Source: Candidatus Poribacteria bacterium (lineage in GTDB: Bacteria > Poribacteria > WGA-4E > JAJDTR01). Taken from it: a stretch of DNA of 50,882 nt. Below the pieces are notes generated by a model. That model had not been told where the DNA came from, did not search any database, and saw only the letters and a list, made by a program, of their open reading frames with translations. The stretch lies in assembly GCA_028820655.1 (NCBI GenBank), contig JAPPIK010000037.1, positions 32,869 through 83,750 on the forward strand. Direction: 5' to 3'. Of this stretch, positions 1,471 through 40,600 are shown in pieces. Position 1 is the stretch's first letter; the number at the start of each line of letters is the position of its first letter. A program made the position numbers and the translations under genes.

Positions 1471-1551
1471 AGGGAAGTATGGTAGACGGGAAATCTTGCA
1501 TTTGGCGATCGCCGAACCCCGTTTTGCGATTGCGGCTTCGGTCAAGGCAAC

Positions 1552-1581
1552 TTGCCAAGCCGCACGCCTACGTGCTATAAT
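1552..1581 (+). promoter_or_regulatory. Sigma-70-type promoter of argH
   Basis: TTGCCA (1552-1557), an 18-bp spacer and a perfect TATAAT (1576-1581). The expected start of transcription is near 1588, about 45 bases before the TTG start chosen for argH. Because the promoter lies inside the longest possible reading frame, it argues against the upstream ATG at 1496. Confidence 0.65.
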
Positions 1582-1633
1582 ACGACGCGTGATTAGTTCG
1601 CGCATTACCCGCCAAACAGGGAGTTCTCGGATA

Positions 1634-3163
1634 TTGTCAACCACACCTTCCAAAAAACTATGGGGCGGGCGGTTTCGCTCGGAGGTAGCGTCTGGAGCCC
1701 AAGGTTTTACCCAGTCTACTGAAATTGATTCGCGTCTGGTCGCTTATGACATTTGGGGGAGTCAAGCACATGCTATCATGCTGGCACGGGCGGAAATAAT
1801 CTCAGACGAAGATCTCCGACAAATCCTTACGTGGCTGGACAGAGCGCAAGAAGATTACGATAACGGTATTTTCAATCTCAAACCGGATAAGGAAGATGTC
1901 CACATGAATGTGGAGTCTTATGTAATTGACGGCGCTGGGATTGAGTGCGGCGGAAAACTCCATACTGCACGCTCCCGTAACGATCAGGTCTTGGTTGACG
2001 CCCATCTGTACGTCCGTGACCAGATTCTCCAAACACAATCCGGATTGACTCGGCTTTGTCGTGTCTTTCTCGGAATTGCGTCAAATCATGCCGAGACGGT
2101 AATGCCGGGCTATACGCACATGCAGCATGCCCAGCCTATCAGCCTTGGATTTTGGGCGACCGCTTACGTCAGCATGTTTTTGCGCGACCTGAAGCGGTTG
2201 AAGGCGGCTTTTCGGCTCGCCAACATGAACCCGTTGGGCGCATGCGCAATTGCCGGTACGTCATTCTCGATTGACCGCCATCTAACCACAAAACTTCTCG
2301 GATTCGACTCCGTTCATAGACATGCCTTGGATGTAATCAGCAGTCGGGACTTCATAGCAGAAACCCTATTTGCCCTGTCTTTGCTAATGACGAACCTCTC
2401 ACGATTGGGAGAGGAGACGATTTATTGGACGACACATGAGTTTGGCATAGCCGTTCTTGACGACGCCTACGCAACAGGTAGTTCGATTATGCCACAGAAG
2501 AAGAATCCGGATATCGCCGAGTTGGTTCGCGGACGTTGCGGACGCGTTTATGGTGAACTGCTCGATCTTTTGACCAATCTCAAAGGTCTTCCGCTGGGAT
2601 ATAATCGCGATCTCCAGGAGGACAAACCCCCGCTTTGGGACGCTTTTGATGTAGTACAATCCTGCCTGAACATCCTCCCCGGTTTTCTTGAAACCACCCG
2701 ATTTAACACGGATAGAATGGCGGAACTGTGCAATGCGAACTTCGCAACGGCAACAGAGTTGGCAAACTTTCTGGTACGCGAGTACGGAATACCGTTTCGT
2801 GAATGCCACGAAATTGTTGGAGGCATCGTCGGTGATCTGGTGAAAAAGGGGGCGACCTTCGAGGATTTGGATGAGACTCGGAATCTGCTGCAACTCCGAG
2901 GCATCTGCCTCTCTACGTCGGAACTTCGAGCTGTTCTCGACTCTAAACATGCGCTTCGGGGCAGTTTGAGTTTGGGCGGTACATCCCCGGCAGAAGTCCA
3001 GCGAATGACATCTGAATTTGGAGCGGAACTGGCAGACATCGATGCCCAAATTTTGTTGCGCAAAGAAGAAATTGACGTTGCATATAATCAGACGCATCAG
3101 ATTATTGAGGAAGTCGCTGCAGGGAGGGCCATTGCGAGAGTCGACTCTCCGTGCTGGGCGTGA
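1634..3163 (+). CDS. argH: Argininosuccinate lyase
   Basis: This enzyme cleaves argininosuccinate to arginine and fumarate, the last step of arginine synthesis, in the cytosol. The N-terminus has the family word KLWGGRF. The signature loop GSSIMPQKKNPD begins near residue 282 and carries the catalytic serine. Other family blocks are GGKLHTARSRNDQ and MPGYTHMQHAQP. I place the start at TTG 1634 because AGGGAG lies about ten bases upstream and a TATAAT promoter lies before it; the ATG at 1496 would put that promoter inside the gene. The resulting 509 residues exceed the usual 460 or so by a C-terminal tail of about 45 residues after the normal end of the family. It stands alone, with no other arg gene nearby. 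Function is near certain; the start is likely but not proven. Confidence 0.95.
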   Translation: MSTTPSKKLWGGRFRSEVASGAQGFTQSTEIDSRLVAYDIWGSQAHAIMLARAEIISDEDLRQILTWLDRAQEDYDNGIFNLKPDKEDVHMNVESYVIDGAGIECGGKLHTARSRNDQVLVDAHLYVRDQILQTQSGLTRLCRVFLGIASNHAETVMPGYTHMQHAQPISLGFWATAYVSMFLRDLKRLKAAFRLANMNPLGACAIAGTSFSIDRHLTTKLLGFDSVHRHALDVISSRDFIAETLFALSLLMTNLSRLGEETIYWTTHEFGIAVLDDAYATGSSIMPQKKNPDIAELVRGRCGRVYGELLDLLTNLKGLPLGYNRDLQEDKPPLWDAFDVVQSCLNILPGFLETTRFNTDRMAELCNANFATATELANFLVREYGIPFRECHEIVGGIVGDLVKKGATFEDLDETRNLLQLRGICLSTSELRAVLDSKHALRGSLSLGGTSPAEVQRMTSEFGAELADIDAQILLRKEEIDVAYNQTHQIIEEVAAGRAIARVDSPCWA

Positions 3164-3315: not shown

Positions 3316-4035
3316 ATGTTTGAACGATTTTCAAAACTTTTCGCTTTGATTGTCATTTTTATACTGACTTGCGGAAGCAGTCTTGCTGCGAGCGGTTCGT
3401 CGAGCGAGAAACCTGAAAAGGGAATGGTGAAGTGGCAGAATAAATCCTACCATGGCAAGCGAACGGCTAGCGGTGAAAGGCACAATCATCGAGACCTTGT
3501 GGCGGCTCATCCGACGCTGCCTTTTGACACCTATCTTAAAGTCGAAGATCCCAGTACCGGGAAAATGGCGGTCGTACGGGTTAATGACCGATGTCCGCAA
3601 AGGAGTGACAGATTGCTTGTTGTTTCGTGGGGTGCTGCGAGATTACTGGGTATCCTTGAGCGCGGCACTGCTAAGATGCAAATCAGCGGCGCAGAGACTT
3701 TTACAGGTTTTGCCTCTTGGTACGGCAAACCATTTCACGGGAGGAAGACGGCAAATGGCGAAGTGTATGACATGGACGCCATGACAGCCGCCCACAAGGA
3801 ATTGCCCTTCAACACACGGGTGCGCGTGGTCAACGTAAAAACCGGAAAATCTGTCGTCGTCAGAATCAATGACCGAGGGCCATTTATCGAGGGACGGATT
3901 ATCGATCTCTCCCGACGCGCGGGGGGCAAACTCGGCATGTTCTTTACGGGCACGATGAAGGTTCGGGTTGAAATCTTGCCGCCGCTCAAGAAGACCCGCA
4001 GGCTAGCTAAGGCGACGAAGGATGGCAAACGATAA
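3316..4035 (+). CDS. RlpA-family protein with two double-psi beta-barrels
   Basis: An exported 239-residue protein. Residues 1-25 are a signal peptide (hydrophobic core, then SLAASG). Two RlpA-like double-psi beta-barrel domains follow in tandem. The second, about residues 133-215, is canonical: GFASWYGKPFHGRKTANGE, AAHKELPFNT, and VRINDRGPF. The first, about 36-118, is a diverged copy: SYHGKRTASGE, AAHPTLPFDT, VRVNDRCP. Both keep the His of AAH and the Asp of NDR, which correspond to the catalytic pair of RlpA lytic transglycosylases. RlpA proteins act on glycan strands lacking peptide stems at the septum. There is no SPOR domain. SD-like AAGGAC precedes the ATG. Its last 14 bases overlap pyrF. 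Murein binding or cleavage is likely; cellular role is inferred from the family. Confidence 0.85.
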   Translation: MFERFSKLFALIVIFILTCGSSLAASGSSSEKPEKGMVKWQNKSYHGKRTASGERHNHRDLVAAHPTLPFDTYLKVEDPSTGKMAVVRVNDRCPQRSDRLLVVSWGAARLLGILERGTAKMQISGAETFTGFASWYGKPFHGRKTANGEVYDMDAMTAAHKELPFNTRVRVVNVKTGKSVVVRINDRGPFIEGRIIDLSRRAGGKLGMFFTGTMKVRVEILPPLKKTRRLAKATKDGKR

Positions 4036-4747
4036 ACTAATCGTTGCGCTTGATTTCGACCTCCTCCATTCGGCGAATCAAACCATCGACCAACTCGGCG
4101 ACTTCGTAGAGTGGTTCAAGATTGGCGGGCAACTTTTTACCGCCGCCGGGCCTACCTCGGTTGAAACCTTCCGCAATCTGGGGAAAAAGGTTTTCCTGGA
4201 CCTCAAATTTCACGACATCCCTAACACAGTGGCGGGCGCTGTCGCCGCGGGTGCGAAAACGGGGGCGAATATGATAAACATGCACGCCTCCGGTGGGCTT
4301 GAGATGATGCGCGCTGCGAGGGAGGCTGCCGACATGCAAGCCGACGCGCTCGAAATCCCGAGGCCACTGTTGCTTGGTGTGACAATACTTACCAGCATTG
4401 ACGAATGGAGTTTCCAGCGGGGCTTCGACACAAAGCGGAAACTGACGGATCAGGTCGCCTATCTGGCGGAACTGTCCCAAAAGGCGGGATTAGATGGCGT
4501 GGTTGCGTCGCCGCTGGAGATCGAGACGGTTCGCCGCGTCTGCGGCGAGAGATTCCTGATCGTCACCCCCGGCGTACGACCTCGGTGGACGGCGGCTGGA
4601 GATCAACGCCGCATCACGACGCCGTCGGAAGCCGTAGATGCCGGAGCGGATTACATCGTCGTCGGTCGCCCCATCACCGGAGCCGGCAATCCGCGCGAGG
4701 CGGCAAAGAACATCCTGCAAGAAATTCAAGACCGTAGTGACCCGTAG
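4022..4747 (+). CDS. pyrF: Orotidine 5'-phosphate decarboxylase
   Basis: Converts OMP to UMP in pyrimidine synthesis. The family's active-site string is present as DLKFHDIPNT, with Asp60, Lys62 and Asp65 forming the expected charged network. The N-terminus IVALDF and the phosphate-gripping end TPGVRP...DYIVVGRPIT are also typical. The length of 241 residues is normal for the short bacterial class. The ATG overlaps the end of the RlpA-like gene by 14 bases, which suggests translational coupling. No other pyr gene is nearby. Confidence 0.96.
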   Translation: MANDKLIVALDFDLLHSANQTIDQLGDFVEWFKIGGQLFTAAGPTSVETFRNLGKKVFLDLKFHDIPNTVAGAVAAGAKTGANMINMHASGGLEMMRAAREAADMQADALEIPRPLLLGVTILTSIDEWSFQRGFDTKRKLTDQVAYLAELSQKAGLDGVVASPLEIETVRRVCGERFLIVTPGVRPRWTAAGDQRRITTPSEAVDAGADYIVVGRPITGAGNPREAAKNILQEIQDRSDP

Positions 4748-4764
4748 CTTGGGGAGTGGTGCCG

Positions 4765-5427
4765 ATGACGCGAGCAGAAGCCTTACGCATCTTGGGATTG
4801 CAGCCCGATGCAACACAGGCCGAGGCGAGGAAGGCGCACCGCCAACTCGTCAAGGCCGTACACCCCGACAAGAACCCGGATCCAAATGCTCGGCACCTTT
4901 TTCATCTTGTTCAGGAAGCGTATGAATTGATAAGCACAACCCAAGAACAGGTACGGGTAGGCGAAAGAGAAGCAAGAGCGAGGGCAGAGAGAGAATACCG
5001 GGAGAGGGAGGCGAGGGCGAGAGCCGAATGGGAAGCTAAGGAAAGAGCCTACAAAGAGAGACGTGCAAAAGAGACTAGGGAGAGACAGGCGCGAGAAGCA
5101 CAGCGGAAATGGGAACGACAGCGCACCGACGCCGCCATCGGAATTACCGGTGCCCTCGGTTGTTCCTACAAAGTCCCAATGCTTGTAATGGCGGTCATAT
5201 GCCCCGGCATATCTTTAGTGTTATGTTACATACTTGCAGCAATGCTTGATTTCGAGTGGATATTTTCTTTGGCTCCATTGGTAGCCGTTGGATCGCTCAT
5301 TTTAGCTTATCGTTTATGGGAACTTGCTGATAAGCGCGTAAAGGAATATCAGTTGAGAGAATTTGACAAGCACAATCCACCTCCATCTAAAGGTGCAAAA
5401 GAGGAGATGGGAGATAATGCCGTTTAA
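4765..5427 (+). CDS. Membrane J-domain protein (paralogue 1)
   Basis: The first 60 residues are a J domain with HPD at 33-35 (AVHPDKNPDPNARHLF), the motif that stimulates Hsp70 ATPase. A strongly charged Arg/Glu/Ala coiled coil follows (about 65-125), then two hydrophobic segments (about 133-190), and a tail ending QLREFDKHNPPPSKG. The start at ATG 4765 is preferred over GTG 4756, because GGGGAG lies in front of it and the neighbouring paralogue begins with the same residues MTRAEALRILGL. About 220 residues. No zinc-finger or substrate-binding domain of true DnaJ is present, so it is a J-like protein that may bring DnaK to the membrane. Its partner and purpose are unknown. Next gene is a larger paralogue. 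Confidence 0.85.
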   Translation: MTRAEALRILGLQPDATQAEARKAHRQLVKAVHPDKNPDPNARHLFHLVQEAYELISTTQEQVRVGEREARARAEREYREREARARAEWEAKERAYKERRAKETRERQAREAQRKWERQRTDAAIGITGALGCSYKVPMLVMAVICPGISLVLCYILAAMLDFEWIFSLAPLVAVGSLILAYRLWELADKRVKEYQLREFDKHNPPPSKGAKEEMGDNAV

Positions 5428-5802
5428 GTTCGACTTTGTACAAAACTGAAGTCTGTAGGGTGCAATCAAGCGAGTGGATAGCGAGTGCGATAGAGATCTT
5501 CCGCGCACCAGCCTTTGAGAGCGCCCACGGCGCGACAGGTGTATAGTAAATCGAGTCGCCCACGTCAAACGCCAGTGGGATCAAGCGAGTAGATGGCGAG
5601 CGCGGCAAAGATCTTCACAGGTTGCATCGGTATCAGCGCCGGTGACTTTTTCAGGGGGTTCAGATTCTTATGCCTTTCACCCTTCCGGGGTTTACAAGGC
5701 TAGTGTAGGAATTCCAACTCGCGACGAAAACCCTCTCTCGGCAAACTATCAAACGTGGATATTTTACCTGTTATTCGAACAGAAACTTAGAGAGAGACGC
5801 CG
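5428..5802. repeat. Repeat-filled gap between the two J-protein genes
   Basis: 375 bases without a gene. It holds two copies of the dispersed block (about 5466-5505 and 5579-5620, both ATCAAGCGAGT...GAT...AAGATCTT type) and a short GC-rich stretch between. The duplication that produced the two J-protein genes is therefore separated by host repeats. I see no clear terminator. Confidence 0.55.
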
Positions 5803-6879
5803 ATGACGCGAGCAGAAGCCTTGCGCATCTTGGGATTGGAACCCGACGCAACTCCGATAGAGGTGAAGCGAGCGTATCGTCAACTCGTGATAGCTGTGCA
5901 CCCCGACAAGAACCCAGCCCCGAATGCGCGGCACCTCTTTCAGCTAGTTCAAGAGGCGTATGAATTTATCTCTACCATTGAGCAACAGGAACACGCAAGG
6001 GAAGCTAGGGATAGGGCGGAAAGACAGGCTAAAGCACGAACTGCCAGAGAAAAGGCTGAAAGAGAAGCTAGACGGAAAGAGGAAAGGGAAAGGGCAGAAA
6101 GGGATGCTCGGGACAGGGCGGAAAGACAGGCTAAAGCACGAGCTGCCAGAGAAAGGGCTGAAAGAGAAGCTAAACAGAAGGAAGAGAGGGAAAGAGCGAA
6201 CAGAGAGAGATTGGAAAGAGAAGTTAAGGAGAAAGCGGCGCAAGAAACAGAAGCACAAAGGGAATGGGAGCGACAACGCGAAGAGGCAGCCAAAATGGGC
6301 TTCGGTGGCTGCTTTGTAGGCCTAATACTACTCATTATGACAATACCAACTTGCATAGCATTTAATCGTTTGATGCACATGATTGGCCTTGGTGGTGAAG
6401 CATTTTTCAGCGTAATGAGTATTGCAGTACCTGCAATTATATACGGCGCACTGTGGTTGGGCAGCACTATTAATGAGCTCATGAAGAAGCATCAATTGAG
6501 AGAATTTGACGAAAATCATCCAATGCCATCCAAAGGTAAAACTGTGCCGAAAGAAGTAGAAGCACAAAAGGAATGGGAGCGGCAACGCGCAGAGGCAGCG
6601 GAACTGGGTTGGGGTAGAGGCTTTGTAGTCCTAGTACCATTCATTATGATAATACCAACTTGCATAGTATTTTACCGTTTGATGCGAATGATTGGCCTCG
6701 GTGGGGGAGCAATTTTCGGCGTAATGATAATTGCAGTACCTGCAATTATGTTCGGCGCTCTGTGGTTGGGCGGCACAATTAGTGAGCTTATTGAGAAGCA
6801 TCAATTGAGAAAATTTGACAAAAATCATCCAACGCCATCCAAAGGTAAAACGGAGGAGGCGACAGATGAAACCGCTTAA
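5803..6879 (+). CDS. Membrane J-domain protein with duplicated membrane module (paralogue 2)
   Basis: 358 residues. The J domain (1-60, HPD in AVHPDKNPAPNARHLF) is nearly identical to that of the upstream gene. A long Arg/Glu/Lys coiled coil follows (about 65-155) and contains its own internal duplication: DRAERQAKAR recurs after about 36 residues. Two tandem copies of a module of about 90 residues come next. Each starts with WERQR.EAA, has two hydrophobic spans (IPTCI.F and AVPAI..GALWLG) and ends HQLR.FD.NHP.PSKGK. The same ending closes the upstream paralogue once. Gene duplication was therefore followed by internal module duplication. Likely an inner-membrane co-chaperone for DnaK; the topology predicts four spans. 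No recognised substrate domain. Confidence 0.85.
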   Translation: MTRAEALRILGLEPDATPIEVKRAYRQLVIAVHPDKNPAPNARHLFQLVQEAYEFISTIEQQEHAREARDRAERQAKARTAREKAEREARRKEERERAERDARDRAERQAKARAARERAEREAKQKEERERANRERLEREVKEKAAQETEAQREWERQREEAAKMGFGGCFVGLILLIMTIPTCIAFNRLMHMIGLGGEAFFSVMSIAVPAIIYGALWLGSTINELMKKHQLREFDENHPMPSKGKTVPKEVEAQKEWERQRAEAAELGWGRGFVVLVPFIMIIPTCIVFYRLMRMIGLGGGAIFGVMIIAVPAIMFGALWLGGTISELIEKHQLRKFDKNHPTPSKGKTEEATDETA

Positions 6880-7040: not shown

Positions 7041-8843
7041 ATGACCAACCAGAAGAGAATTAGAAACTACTGTATACTGGGCCATATCGATCACGGTAAG
7101 AGTACACTGAGTGATCGCCTGCTCGAATACACCGGCACGCTGACGCAACGCGAGATGCGGGAGCAAGTGCTTGATCAGATGGACCTCGAGCGGGAACGCG
7201 GTATCACCATCAAAGCGGCCGTCGTCAAGCTTGAACACCGCGCAATGGATGGCCACTCATACGAACTCAATCTCATTGACACGCCGGGACACGTCGATTT
7301 TACCTATGAAGTCTCACGAAGCCTGGCGGCGTGCGAAGGAGCCGTGCTCATCGTTGACGCGGCGCAGGGGGTGGAAGCGCAAACGCTCGCAAATGCGTAT
7401 CTGGCGGTGAATCACGACCTTGAAATCATCCCCGTCATCAATAAAATAGACTTGCCCACGGCTCGTCCCGATGAGGTGAAGGCGCAAGTCGAAGACATCG
7501 TCGGTCTTCCTGCATCGGATGCGCTTCTGGTTAGCGCGAAGGAGGGGCTGGGAATTGCTGAGATATTGGAAGCAATCGTTACTCGCATTCCACCTCCCCG
7601 CGGCAAAACGGACGAGCCGCTCAAGGCGCTGGTTATCGATTCGATGTACGATAACTATCGAGGCGTCATTATGTACGTCCGGGTCTTTGATAATGCCATA
7701 AAACCGGGCGACAAGATTCAACTCATGGCTACCGGAAAAGCATTCGAGGTGGAGGAGGTGGGGGTGTTTTTGCCAGACATGACGCCGGTCGACCAACTCG
7801 GCGCGGGCACCGTGGGCTACCTCATAGCCGGGGTCAGAGAGATTGCAACCGCCAAAATTGGCGACACTGTGACACACGCCGATCGTCCCACATCGAGTCC
7901 GTTGCCGGGGTATCGAGAGATGAAACCGCTCGTCTTCTGCGGTCTATATCCGGCGGATACGAGCGATTTTATCACGCTGCGCGAGGCTTTGGAGAAACTC
8001 AAACTCAACGATTCTTCCTTTAACTTTGAGCCGGAAACCTCCGTGGCGCTCGGATTCGGGTTTCGCTGCGGCTTTTTGGGACTGCTGCACATGGAGGTAA
8101 TTCAGGAACGGCTTGAGCGAGAGTTTGGCTTGTCCCTGATACGCACCGTTCCCAGCGTCAAATATCACATTTTCACCACGGACGGGGACTGCCTCGAAGT
8201 TGACAATCCTGCCCACGTGCCATCGCGTGACAAAATTGATTATATTCAGGAACCTCATATTACGGCAGACATAATTGTTCCGAGGGACTACATCGGGAAC
8301 GTGATGGACATCTGTCAGAAGCGGCGCGGCGGATTCATAAGGATGAATCAGCTTGATGAATCGCGGGTGCAGGTGATTTACGATCTTCCGCTAAGCGAAA
8401 TCCTTGTCGACTTTTACGATAAATTGAAATCGGTGACGCGCGGATACGGTTCGCTCGAATACGAAATCGGCGAGTACAAAACGGCGGATCTTGTCAAACT
8501 GGATATCCTGCTCAATGGCAAGTCGGTGGACGCGCTTTCAAGCATACTTCACCGGGATATGGCGTACACGCGTGGGAAGACATGTATCGACAAACTGCGC
8601 GAGTTAATTCCTCGCCAAATGTTCGAGATTCCGATTCAAGCCGCTATCGGCAACAAAATCATCTCACGCGAGACTGTGCGTCCGTTGCGAAAGAACGTCA
8701 CCGGAAAGTGTTACGGCGGCGACATCACACGGAAGCGAAAACTTCTGGAACAGCAGAAGGAAGGCAAAAAACGCCTGAAACAGATTGGGGTCGTCGAAGT
8801 GCCGCAAGAGGCCTTCATGGCGGTCTTGTCGGTAGACGAATGA
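7041..8843 (+). CDS. lepA: Elongation factor 4 (back-translocase GTPase LepA)
   Basis: A ribosome-bound translational GTPase. The G1 loop GHIDHGKS is at residues 14-21, then RGITIKA (G2), DTPGHVDF (G3), NKIDLP (G4) and SAKEGLG (G5). The C-terminal half has the LepA-specific strings [20 protein letters not shown] and the terminal domain [15 protein letters not shown]. 600 residues is the normal length. Upstream DNA shows no strong SD; the ATG is set by homology of [20 protein letters not shown]. It is followed after 245 bases by lepB, the same order as in many bacteria. That spacer contains a perfect palindrome, GAGAATCGATTCTC, at 8856-8869. Confidence 0.97.
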
Positions 8844-39391: not shown

Positions 39392-40600
39392 TCATGTGGC
39401 AGTTGAGTTCTTGTGACGATAGAACGTGTCATCTCGAAATAGAGCAAAGATGACCCTTATGAGTTGGCGAGCCAAACACTTGACCGCTTGCCAATGGGAA
39501 AGCCCTGCTTTCCGTTTCTTGAGGTAATACGTGGTAGAAGATGCACAATAGCGACGATTGGATTCGGCTATCTGTATGATAGCGTCTTTAGCTACTTTAT
39601 TGGCACGATGCGTGGTTCTGTGGAATCCCTTTCGCTTGCCGGAGTCGTCGGGGACAGGGGAAAGGCCACAGTACATAGCTAGTTTCGCCTCGGTTTTAAA
39701 TCGATTGATGTTGCATACTTCGCCCAGCAGACGAGCGGCGGTGATCACAGAAGCTCCGGGAATTGAAGCGATACGTTGAATCTCCAATGATTCCTTGGCT
39801 AACGTTTTGAGTTGCTTCTCCAACTGAGTTAGGTTCTGCGCAAGAGTGAGGATCTGCTGTGCGAGTGTTTGGACAACAAGCGCCTTCGTATCTAGATGCG
39901 AGGGATAGCGATGTACAGATTCGGCAAGTTGCATTAGTTTGTCAGCCGATCGTCGTCCTAATCGGTTCTTGCTATGTTTGCCGATGAACACGTTTAATTC
40001 CTCTACAGATGAGTTTCGGACGTGTTCGGGTGTTGGATACTCAACAAGCAGGTGCAAGAATGTCTTGCTGGTGATGCTTGAACAGATGGAATCGGTAACC
40101 AATTCCGGGAAATAGCTCATCAATTCACAGCGCAATTGATTGGTGAACTGGGTTTTGGTCTTGGAAAACGCCTTATATGTCCTCGACAAATTCTTGAACT
40201 CGGCACTATTCTTCTGATGCTGATGCGCCGGAATCTTGGCATGTTGAGTTCGGAGGAAGTCGGCGATCACATAGGCATCGTAGTCGTCGGTCTTATGGGG
40301 AGCGCCTAAGAAATCCTTATACCGATTCACTGCTGTCGGGTGCAATGGCTTGAACAGAATGGCTTCATTAAGGAGGTATTCATCAAGTGGAGCTAAATTC
40401 CCATCATGTCCCTCGGAGGCCACGATAGGTATCAACCCATCTGCCTTGAGTTGAAGCAGTTTGTCAATGAGTTGCTGGTAGCCTTGATGCGTCTGATTAA
40501 TGGCAAAGTTAGCCAGCTTGTTTTCCGCTTCATCAATGATACACACGGCGATGTTGTAGTGTCCAATATCCAGACCGACAAAACAAAAGGTATTCATCAT
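39392..40600 (-). CDS. IS110-family transposase
   Basis: 402 residues. The N-terminal RuvC-like domain has the catalytic acids Asp11 (FVGLDIGHYN), Glu63 (ASEGHDGN), and Asp105/Asp108 (HKTDDYDAYVIADFLR), the DEDD set of the family. The C-terminal Tnp20 domain begins with IPGASVITAARLLGEV and contains YCGLSPVPDDSGKRKGFHR, with the Ser region conserved. AGAGGAG precedes the ATG. The reading frame is complete, so the element may be active. Such transposases use a bridge RNA made from the element's own end. Confidence 0.93.
   Translation of the reverse strand: MMNTFCFVGLDIGHYNIAVCIIDEAENKLANFAINQTHQGYQQLIDKLLQLKADGLIPIVASEGHDGNLAPLDEYLLNEAILFKPLHPTAVNRYKDFLGAPHKTDDYDAYVIADFLRTQHAKIPAHQHQKNSAEFKNLSRTYKAFSKTKTQFTNQLRCELMSYFPELVTDSICSSITSKTFLHLLVEYPTPEHVRNSSVEELNVFIGKHSKNRLGRRSADKLMQLAESVHRYPSHLDTKALVVQTLAQQILTLAQNLTQLEKQLKTLAKESLEIQRIASIPGASVITAARLLGEVCNINRFKTEAKLAMYCGLSPVPDDSGKRKGFHRTTHRANKVAKDAIIQIAESNRRYCASSTTYYLKKRKAGLSHWQAVKCLARQLIRVIFALFRDDTFYRHKNSTAT

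Follow-up and report, generated by a model that had tools for sequence, protein, structure and literature searches.

What do two neighbouring genes, each encoding a J domain joined to a highly charged stretch and to hydrophobic segments, do for a bacterium of the Poribacteria? The genes occupy positions 4765-6879 of the window (the whole stretch of DNA that was analysed, 50,882 nucleotides long), which is part of contig C31 in a genome of 5.9 Mb and 95% completeness. An initial annotation, made from the letters of the sequence, described them as paralogous membrane J-domain proteins with a repeated membrane module, possibly recruiting DnaK to the inner membrane. The observation was confirmed, the two J-domain paralogues with HPD being encoded by intact reading frames, and the interpretation was partly supported. 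The reading that we favour, with a probability of about 0.6, is that the pair constitutes an accessory inner-membrane anchor for DnaK, recently duplicated and lineage-specific, and composed of J domain, hairpins and tails.

The pair is preceded by argH, an rlpA-like gene and pyrF, and followed by lepA (Table 1). Only 17 nt separate the pyrF stop from the start of gene 1, which may therefore be co-transcribed with pyrF; an in-frame GTG at 4756 lies upstream of the gene 1 ATG. A promoter scan around the pair gave nothing above chance. The spacer between the two genes (5428-5802) carries, best preserved at about 5454-5525, a repeat of about 63-72 nt that is dispersed through the genome, where it has some 80 matches, several of them in head-to-tail runs of units of about 35 nt; two related copies are found in the spacer itself (5460-5501 and 5575-5616). 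Further along the window, an ORF of 402 aa on the minus strand (39392-40600) was judged by eye to be IS110-type transposase-like.

Table 1. Features of the J-domain gene pair and of its surroundings (positions refer to the window unless a locus is named).
Feature	Position	Strand	Description
argH	1496-3163		upstream of the pair; name read from sequence
rlpA-like gene	3316-4035		upstream of the pair; name read from sequence
pyrF	4022-4747	+	ORF, orotidine 5'-phosphate decarboxylase; name read from sequence
Gene 1	4765-5427	+	intact ORF, 220 aa, ATG at 4765
Gene 1 J domain	4765-4950	+	residues 1-62, HPD 33-35, without helix IV; Pfam DnaJ E = 4.7e-14
Gene 1 charged helix	4951-5163	+	residues 63-133; continues J helix III; EAQRKWERQR near end
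Gene 1 hydrophobic spans	5164-5337	+	two predicted spans (hairpin); hydropathy maxima at residues 134 and 156
Gene 1 predicted cytosolic tail	5338-5403	+	tail motif, VKEYQLREFDKHNPPPSKGAKE
Gene 2	5803-6879	+	intact ORF, 358 aa, ATG at 5803
Gene 2 J domain	5803-5988	+	residues 1-62, HPD 33-35; Pfam DnaJ E = 6.4e-15
Gene 2 charged helix	5989-6249	+	contains in-frame 102-nt duplication
Gene 2 module a	6250-6546	+	EAQREWERQR, two hydrophobic spans, tail MKKHQLREFDENHPMPSKGK; model hairpin, turn 194-197
Gene 2 module b	6559-6876	+	EAQKEWERQR, two hydrophobic spans, tail IEKHQLRKFDKNHPTPSKGK; hairpin
lepA	7041-8843	+	downstream of the pair; ORF, name read from sequence
pyrE-like ORF, locus L130	2312-2902 (flipped)		slot of the J pair in the window
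pyrE-like ORF, locus L133	2160-2753		slot of the J pair in the window

Both proteins are J-domain proteins of the Hsp40 superfamily, with the HPD between helices II and III. Their Pfam DnaJ scores are well over the cut-off, and both sequences show helix II with its basic residues as well as the HPD. An AlphaFold2 model of the gene 1 J domain has helices at 3-9, 18-32 and from 42 onward, with pLDDT above 90, and the solved structures nearest to the models are J domains. The two J domains, identical at 48 of 62 residues, are sisters in the J tree (support 95/85). At the whole-protein level, BLASTP aligned residues 1-81 at 70% identity and gave a second, C-terminal match apart from these. The J domains of both genes are clearly under purifying selection (dN 0.141 and dS 1.13 by NG86, 0.157 and 0.745 by maximum likelihood, that is a dN/dS of 0.12-0.21; this and the other dN/dS figures, for modules and tail, come from 22-91 codons and are rough). 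All 16 aligned J domains keep the HPD, its loss being confined to a decayed remnant in a sister species, described below.

The J domain runs straight into the charged helix, and both proteins lack J helix IV and the G/F region. Membership of class A or B, whose proteins have a G/F region and beta-sandwich C-terminal domains (with a zinc finger in class A), was rejected on this ground, the DnaJ_bact model scoring only 38-46 bits where 377 are required. Both are class C proteins, in which a J domain is combined with unrelated parts, membrane spans being allowed. Class C is very heterogeneous and may include transmembrane regions (PMC8215388).

The charged stretch, which the initial annotation took for a coiled coil, shows no heptad signal. 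It consists to 61% (gene 1, residues 63-116) and 64% (gene 2) of K, R, D and E, with 3-6 large hydrophobic residues in stretches of 97 and 54 residues. The hydrophobicity at positions a and d is that of shuffled sequences, 273 and 262 of 1000 shuffles being equally good, whereas salt-bridge pairs at i,i+3 and i,i+4 exceed the shuffles, of which 37 (gene 1) and 63 in 2000 scored as high. A rigid single helix of the ER/K type is thus more likely than a coiled coil. In the AlphaFold2 models, built from 7-sequence alignments, one helix extends from J helix III through the charged stretch into the first span (residues 42-159 in gene 1, 42-193 in gene 2), and a turn and another helix come after it; pLDDT is mostly 87-98 for the J domain and rod, and low for spans and tails. 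A literature search for J domains combined with a single alpha-helix gave nothing useful.

Hydropathy indicates two hydrophobic spans in gene 1 and four in gene 2, with flanks rich in K, R and E. The hairpin arrangement rests on hydropathy and on a part of the models of low confidence (pLDDT 50-82 in gene 1, 52-74 in gene 2), with a helix break at 160-163 between the gene 1 spans and, in gene 2, a hairpin repeated at 250-341. From these features both proteins are predicted to be inserted in the inner membrane. Since the N-terminal part is charged and the number of spans even, the J domain and the tails should face the same, cytosolic side. The spans are followed by the tail motif, as described at the outset, three times in all, with the consensus QLR[EK]FD..(H/N)P.PSKG. 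Searched as a DNA pattern, this motif occurs at exactly 3 places in the whole 5.9-Mb genome, all in the J pair, compared with 0 for the control.

The module belongs to no described family, as had been supposed: scanned alone it had no match in Pfam, and none was found in the PDB. A profile of the module detected 1 of the 84 genomes of the phylum, the species itself. Within that genome it occupies no second place, one further match being negligible (E 0.008, 18.8 bits). No relatives of the module were found in phages or plasmids, and exact short gene 2 peptides, a search that reaches close relatives only, had no match in viral and genome contigs. Nor was a known family with an assigned function found to span the whole protein. 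With the full proteins, Pfam matches to PFF1_TM, presenilin, Sec62, DUF4337 and DUF2207_C remained below their cut-offs; they vanished when the modules were scanned alone and therefore stem from the charged helix. Also set aside were NCBIfam CBU_0585 (15 tail residues only, E 0.0046, too short for use), TopJ and TolA (J domain or charged helix only), and a PADLOC match to LeoBC (E 0.0009) spanning the charged helix and first span. A J domain joined to an ER/K helix, a repeated hairpin and this tail is a new combination, so far limited to one species.

Gene 2 has grown by two in-frame duplications. Its membrane module is duplicated in tandem with a spacing of 309 nt, or 103 codons (6239-6538 and 6548-6847, 300 nt in register, 85% identity), and its charged helix contains a direct repeat of 102 nt, or 34 codons (5997-6098 and 6099-6200, 87%). 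The initial annotation was correct as to two modules and a second duplication, the duplicated element of the latter being more likely an ER/K-type helix than a coiled coil. Between modules a and b, dN is 0.159 and dS 0.199 (NG86; 0.163 and 0.182 by maximum likelihood). As this dS is lower than that between two species of the genus for pyrF (0.30) and lepA (0.72), the module duplication is recent, and the two modules have been nearly unconstrained since, with a dN/dS of about 0.8-0.9. The idea of a conserved repeated membrane module is therefore not sustained.

How much of the module is common to the two genes was examined segment by segment. The two genes agree at 10-11 of 15 residues in the EAQ[RK].WERQR edge and at 12 of 22 in the tail (dN/dS 0.17-0.30), whereas in the spans only 14-16 of 56-60 residues match (25-27% identity). 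Because shuffled sequences match almost as well as the spans, 63 and 11 of 500 scoring equally high, homology between the genes is secure only in the edge and the tail, so that the claim of a shared module stands for these two elements and not for the spans. The spans thus appear to evolve fast, and the predicted cytosolic edges are the part clearly common to both genes.

Conserved ends around divergent spans, together with the threefold occurrence of the tail motif, would also suit a client-specific assembly factor, in which the tail binds one membrane or cytosolic partner and DnaK remodels a single complex. HscB, which serves one client, IscU, is the model for such a role. No partner gene, however, accompanies the pair: the neighbours argH, rlpA-like, pyrF and lepA are all housekeeping genes. 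The tail motif, moreover, is absent from the relatives, and we regard this explanation as improbable.

The sister species (G001) keeps the order argH, rlpA-like, pyrF, lepA. Between pyrF and lepA it has only a J-domain remnant of 43 codons, in which the HPD has become QPQ and which is followed by a stop; the genus can accordingly do without the gene. Such a remnant raises the question of whether the pair in the window is itself a relic of a once useful gene, duplicated by slippage and now drifting without present function. The near-neutral divergence of the gene 2 modules would agree with this, as would the hardly alignable hydrophobic parts of the two genes and the lack of a close J-domain relative in 73 of 84 genomes (subfamily profile, below). 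Decay, however, would not be expected to leave both reading frames intact and both duplications in frame, nor to spare the HPD and the constraint on J domains and on tails. Of the alternatives to a DnaK anchor we hold this one to be the most serious, and still unlikely.

A profile of the J domain, with its MTR-EAL-ILGL signature, collected 19 members in 11 of the 84 genomes, at 84-114 bits. The best match outside these members, among ordinary DnaJ and CbpA proteins of the phylum, reached 73 bits; the J domains of the window score 105-108 bits, and as both are within the profile, it is the gap to 73 bits that is informative. On these scores the pair can be assigned to a patchily distributed MTR-EAL J-domain subfamily of the Poribacteria. 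The C-termini differ widely. Nine of the 19 have membrane spans (genes 1 and 2 of the present genome, G000; one each in G050, G036 and G013; two each in G079 and G004, one of the G004 pair combining a single span with TPR-like repeats), eight have TPR-like repeats and no spans, one is of a CxxC zinc-ribbon-like type and one of no assigned kind. The TPRs are confirmed by Pfam for G004 C10, weakly so for G000 C48, and otherwise read from the sequence. It appears that the J domain is the constant part of the subfamily, and that its C-termini are swapped or diverge quickly. Resolution in the J tree is poor, with 3 of 19 inner branches starred and the deeper ones undecided, so that it does not decide between a single and a repeated gain of spans.

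G004 alone contains five subfamily proteins (L047, L048, L086, L087 and L088), a small local radiation whose C-termini are TPR, TM plus TPR, TM, zinc-ribbon-like and TPR. In several Poribacteria (L022, L024, L034) a J domain is fused to a domain named by eye as formylglycine-generating-enzyme-like (SUMF1-type).

A bolder generalization would be that the conserved J domain and rigid ER/K helix form a plug-in to which ever-changing membrane hairpins or TPR arrays are attached, in many cases at one common genomic location; QLREFD..HP.PSKG would then be a cytosolic recruitment motif that is new in this species and was multiplied as a repeated docking module. We consider it a doubtful extrapolation.

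Genes with a J domain, a helix and TM spans recur in G050, G036, G013, G079 and G004. In the first four, argH directly precedes the gene (in G079, one of two copies, L058). In G050, G036 and G013, which belong to another family, the gene ends 0.6-1.0 kb upstream of pyrF; in G079 pyrF is on another contig than the argH-linked copy, and the second J copy on a further one. That two families should have such genes within a few kb of argH and pyrF, out of 5 Mb, is unlikely to be a coincidence. The slot itself differs, the pair in the window lying after pyrF and the relatives between argH and pyrF, so that local rearrangement and independent insertion are both possible. The slot between pyrF and lepA is occupied by a pyrE-like ORF, identified by eye, in G004 and in one genome of family f3, and measures about 65-430 nt in the other f4 genomes.

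Between argH and pyrF, many Poribacteria of family f2 carry a HigB-type toxin gene (Pfam 4.7e-29) and a small antitoxin-like gene (L083 7962-8614, L085 5514-6165, L143 752-1400); the latter has no convincing Pfam match. In G050, G036 and G013 these two genes lie between the J gene and pyrF. The J gene directly precedes an intact HigB and the small gene in G050 and G013, and it could accordingly be cargo of a variable slot and act as a chaperone for the toxin and its partner, as in toxin-antitoxin-chaperone systems. The window, however, holds no HigB or antitoxin-like homologue, many relatives carry the toxin pair without a J gene, and G036 keeps its J gene though its HigB is broken. Such a role is very improbable for the pair.

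A single Hsp70, DnaK, was found in the 95% complete genome, and a functional J domain must therefore serve DnaK, unless another Hsp70 was missed in the unassembled part. The role suggested at the outset, bringing DnaK to the inner membrane, is on that account all the more likely, and it is the most likely one. As an anchor for DnaK, the pair would place its J domains on the cytosolic side, each carried by a stiff arm of highly charged sequence that counts some 70 residues in gene 1 and 100 in gene 2; a straight arm would measure roughly 10-15 nm. The protein would be fixed in the membrane by a single hydrophobic hairpin in gene 1 and by two in gene 2, each followed by a short cytosolic tail. 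Through its HPD loop the J domain would stimulate DnaK to hydrolyse ATP and so load it onto clients at the membrane or close to it; the site, client or partner may be chosen by the tail, or else by the hairpin. The benefit is weak or conditional, since the gene 2 modules are near-neutral and the genes were lost in the sister species.

If this is true, a bacterium can direct its only Hsp70 to the membrane by giving a cheap adapter another anchor while the J domain stays the same. Anchor-swapping of J proteins is usually described for the large eukaryotic J-protein sets. The pair is a modest finding, limited to one species, recently duplicated and lost in a sister. It nevertheless offers a clean natural case of J-protein gain and loss in uncultured Poribacteria, with an intact pair, a broken sister remnant, and relatives in another family that neighbour argH and pyrF.

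Among known systems, DjlA is a class C membrane co-chaperone of DnaK whose anchored J domain faces the cytosol. Its N-terminal span and C-terminal J domain are the reverse of the layout found here, and the NCBIfam DjlA model matched only 33-34 J-domain residues (21-25 bits, the cut-off being 162). The bacterial TimB proteins, similar to Tim14/Pam18, are inner-membrane J proteins with a J domain of the EA(Y/L).ILGL type, and again have span and J domain in the reverse order. Among the matches of the J-domain search, in most of which the similarity is confined to the first 39 residues, were alphaproteobacterial MTR.EAL J domains.

Closer in layout are DjlB and DjlC of E. coli, tail-anchored class C proteins working with HscC, which likewise have an N-terminal J domain, a C-terminal anchor and the arrangement of a neighbouring paralogue pair, and which provide a precedent for a membrane anchor on a bacterial J-domain protein (PMC8215388). 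The pair in the window differs from them by its predicted hairpins (2 or 4 spans), cytosolic tail and long charged helix; by sequence, it was compared with them through the family libraries. A system of the DjlB/DjlC-HscC type needs a second Hsp70 of the HscC type and is unlikely for the pair, since only one Hsp70 was found in the 95% complete genome. The argH-linked genes of the Poribacteria PCPOR2a, jk18x9bins.65, PNGco_C_binSS2 and Plut_88885 share the MTR.EAL.ILGL J domain, charged helix and spans; unlike the pair, they lack the QLREFD..HP.PSKG tail, and their spans are not alignable. They neighbour argH in 4 of 4 cases and pyrF too in 3, the J gene lying between the two. The membrane-anchored class C design is already known; the membrane part is new.
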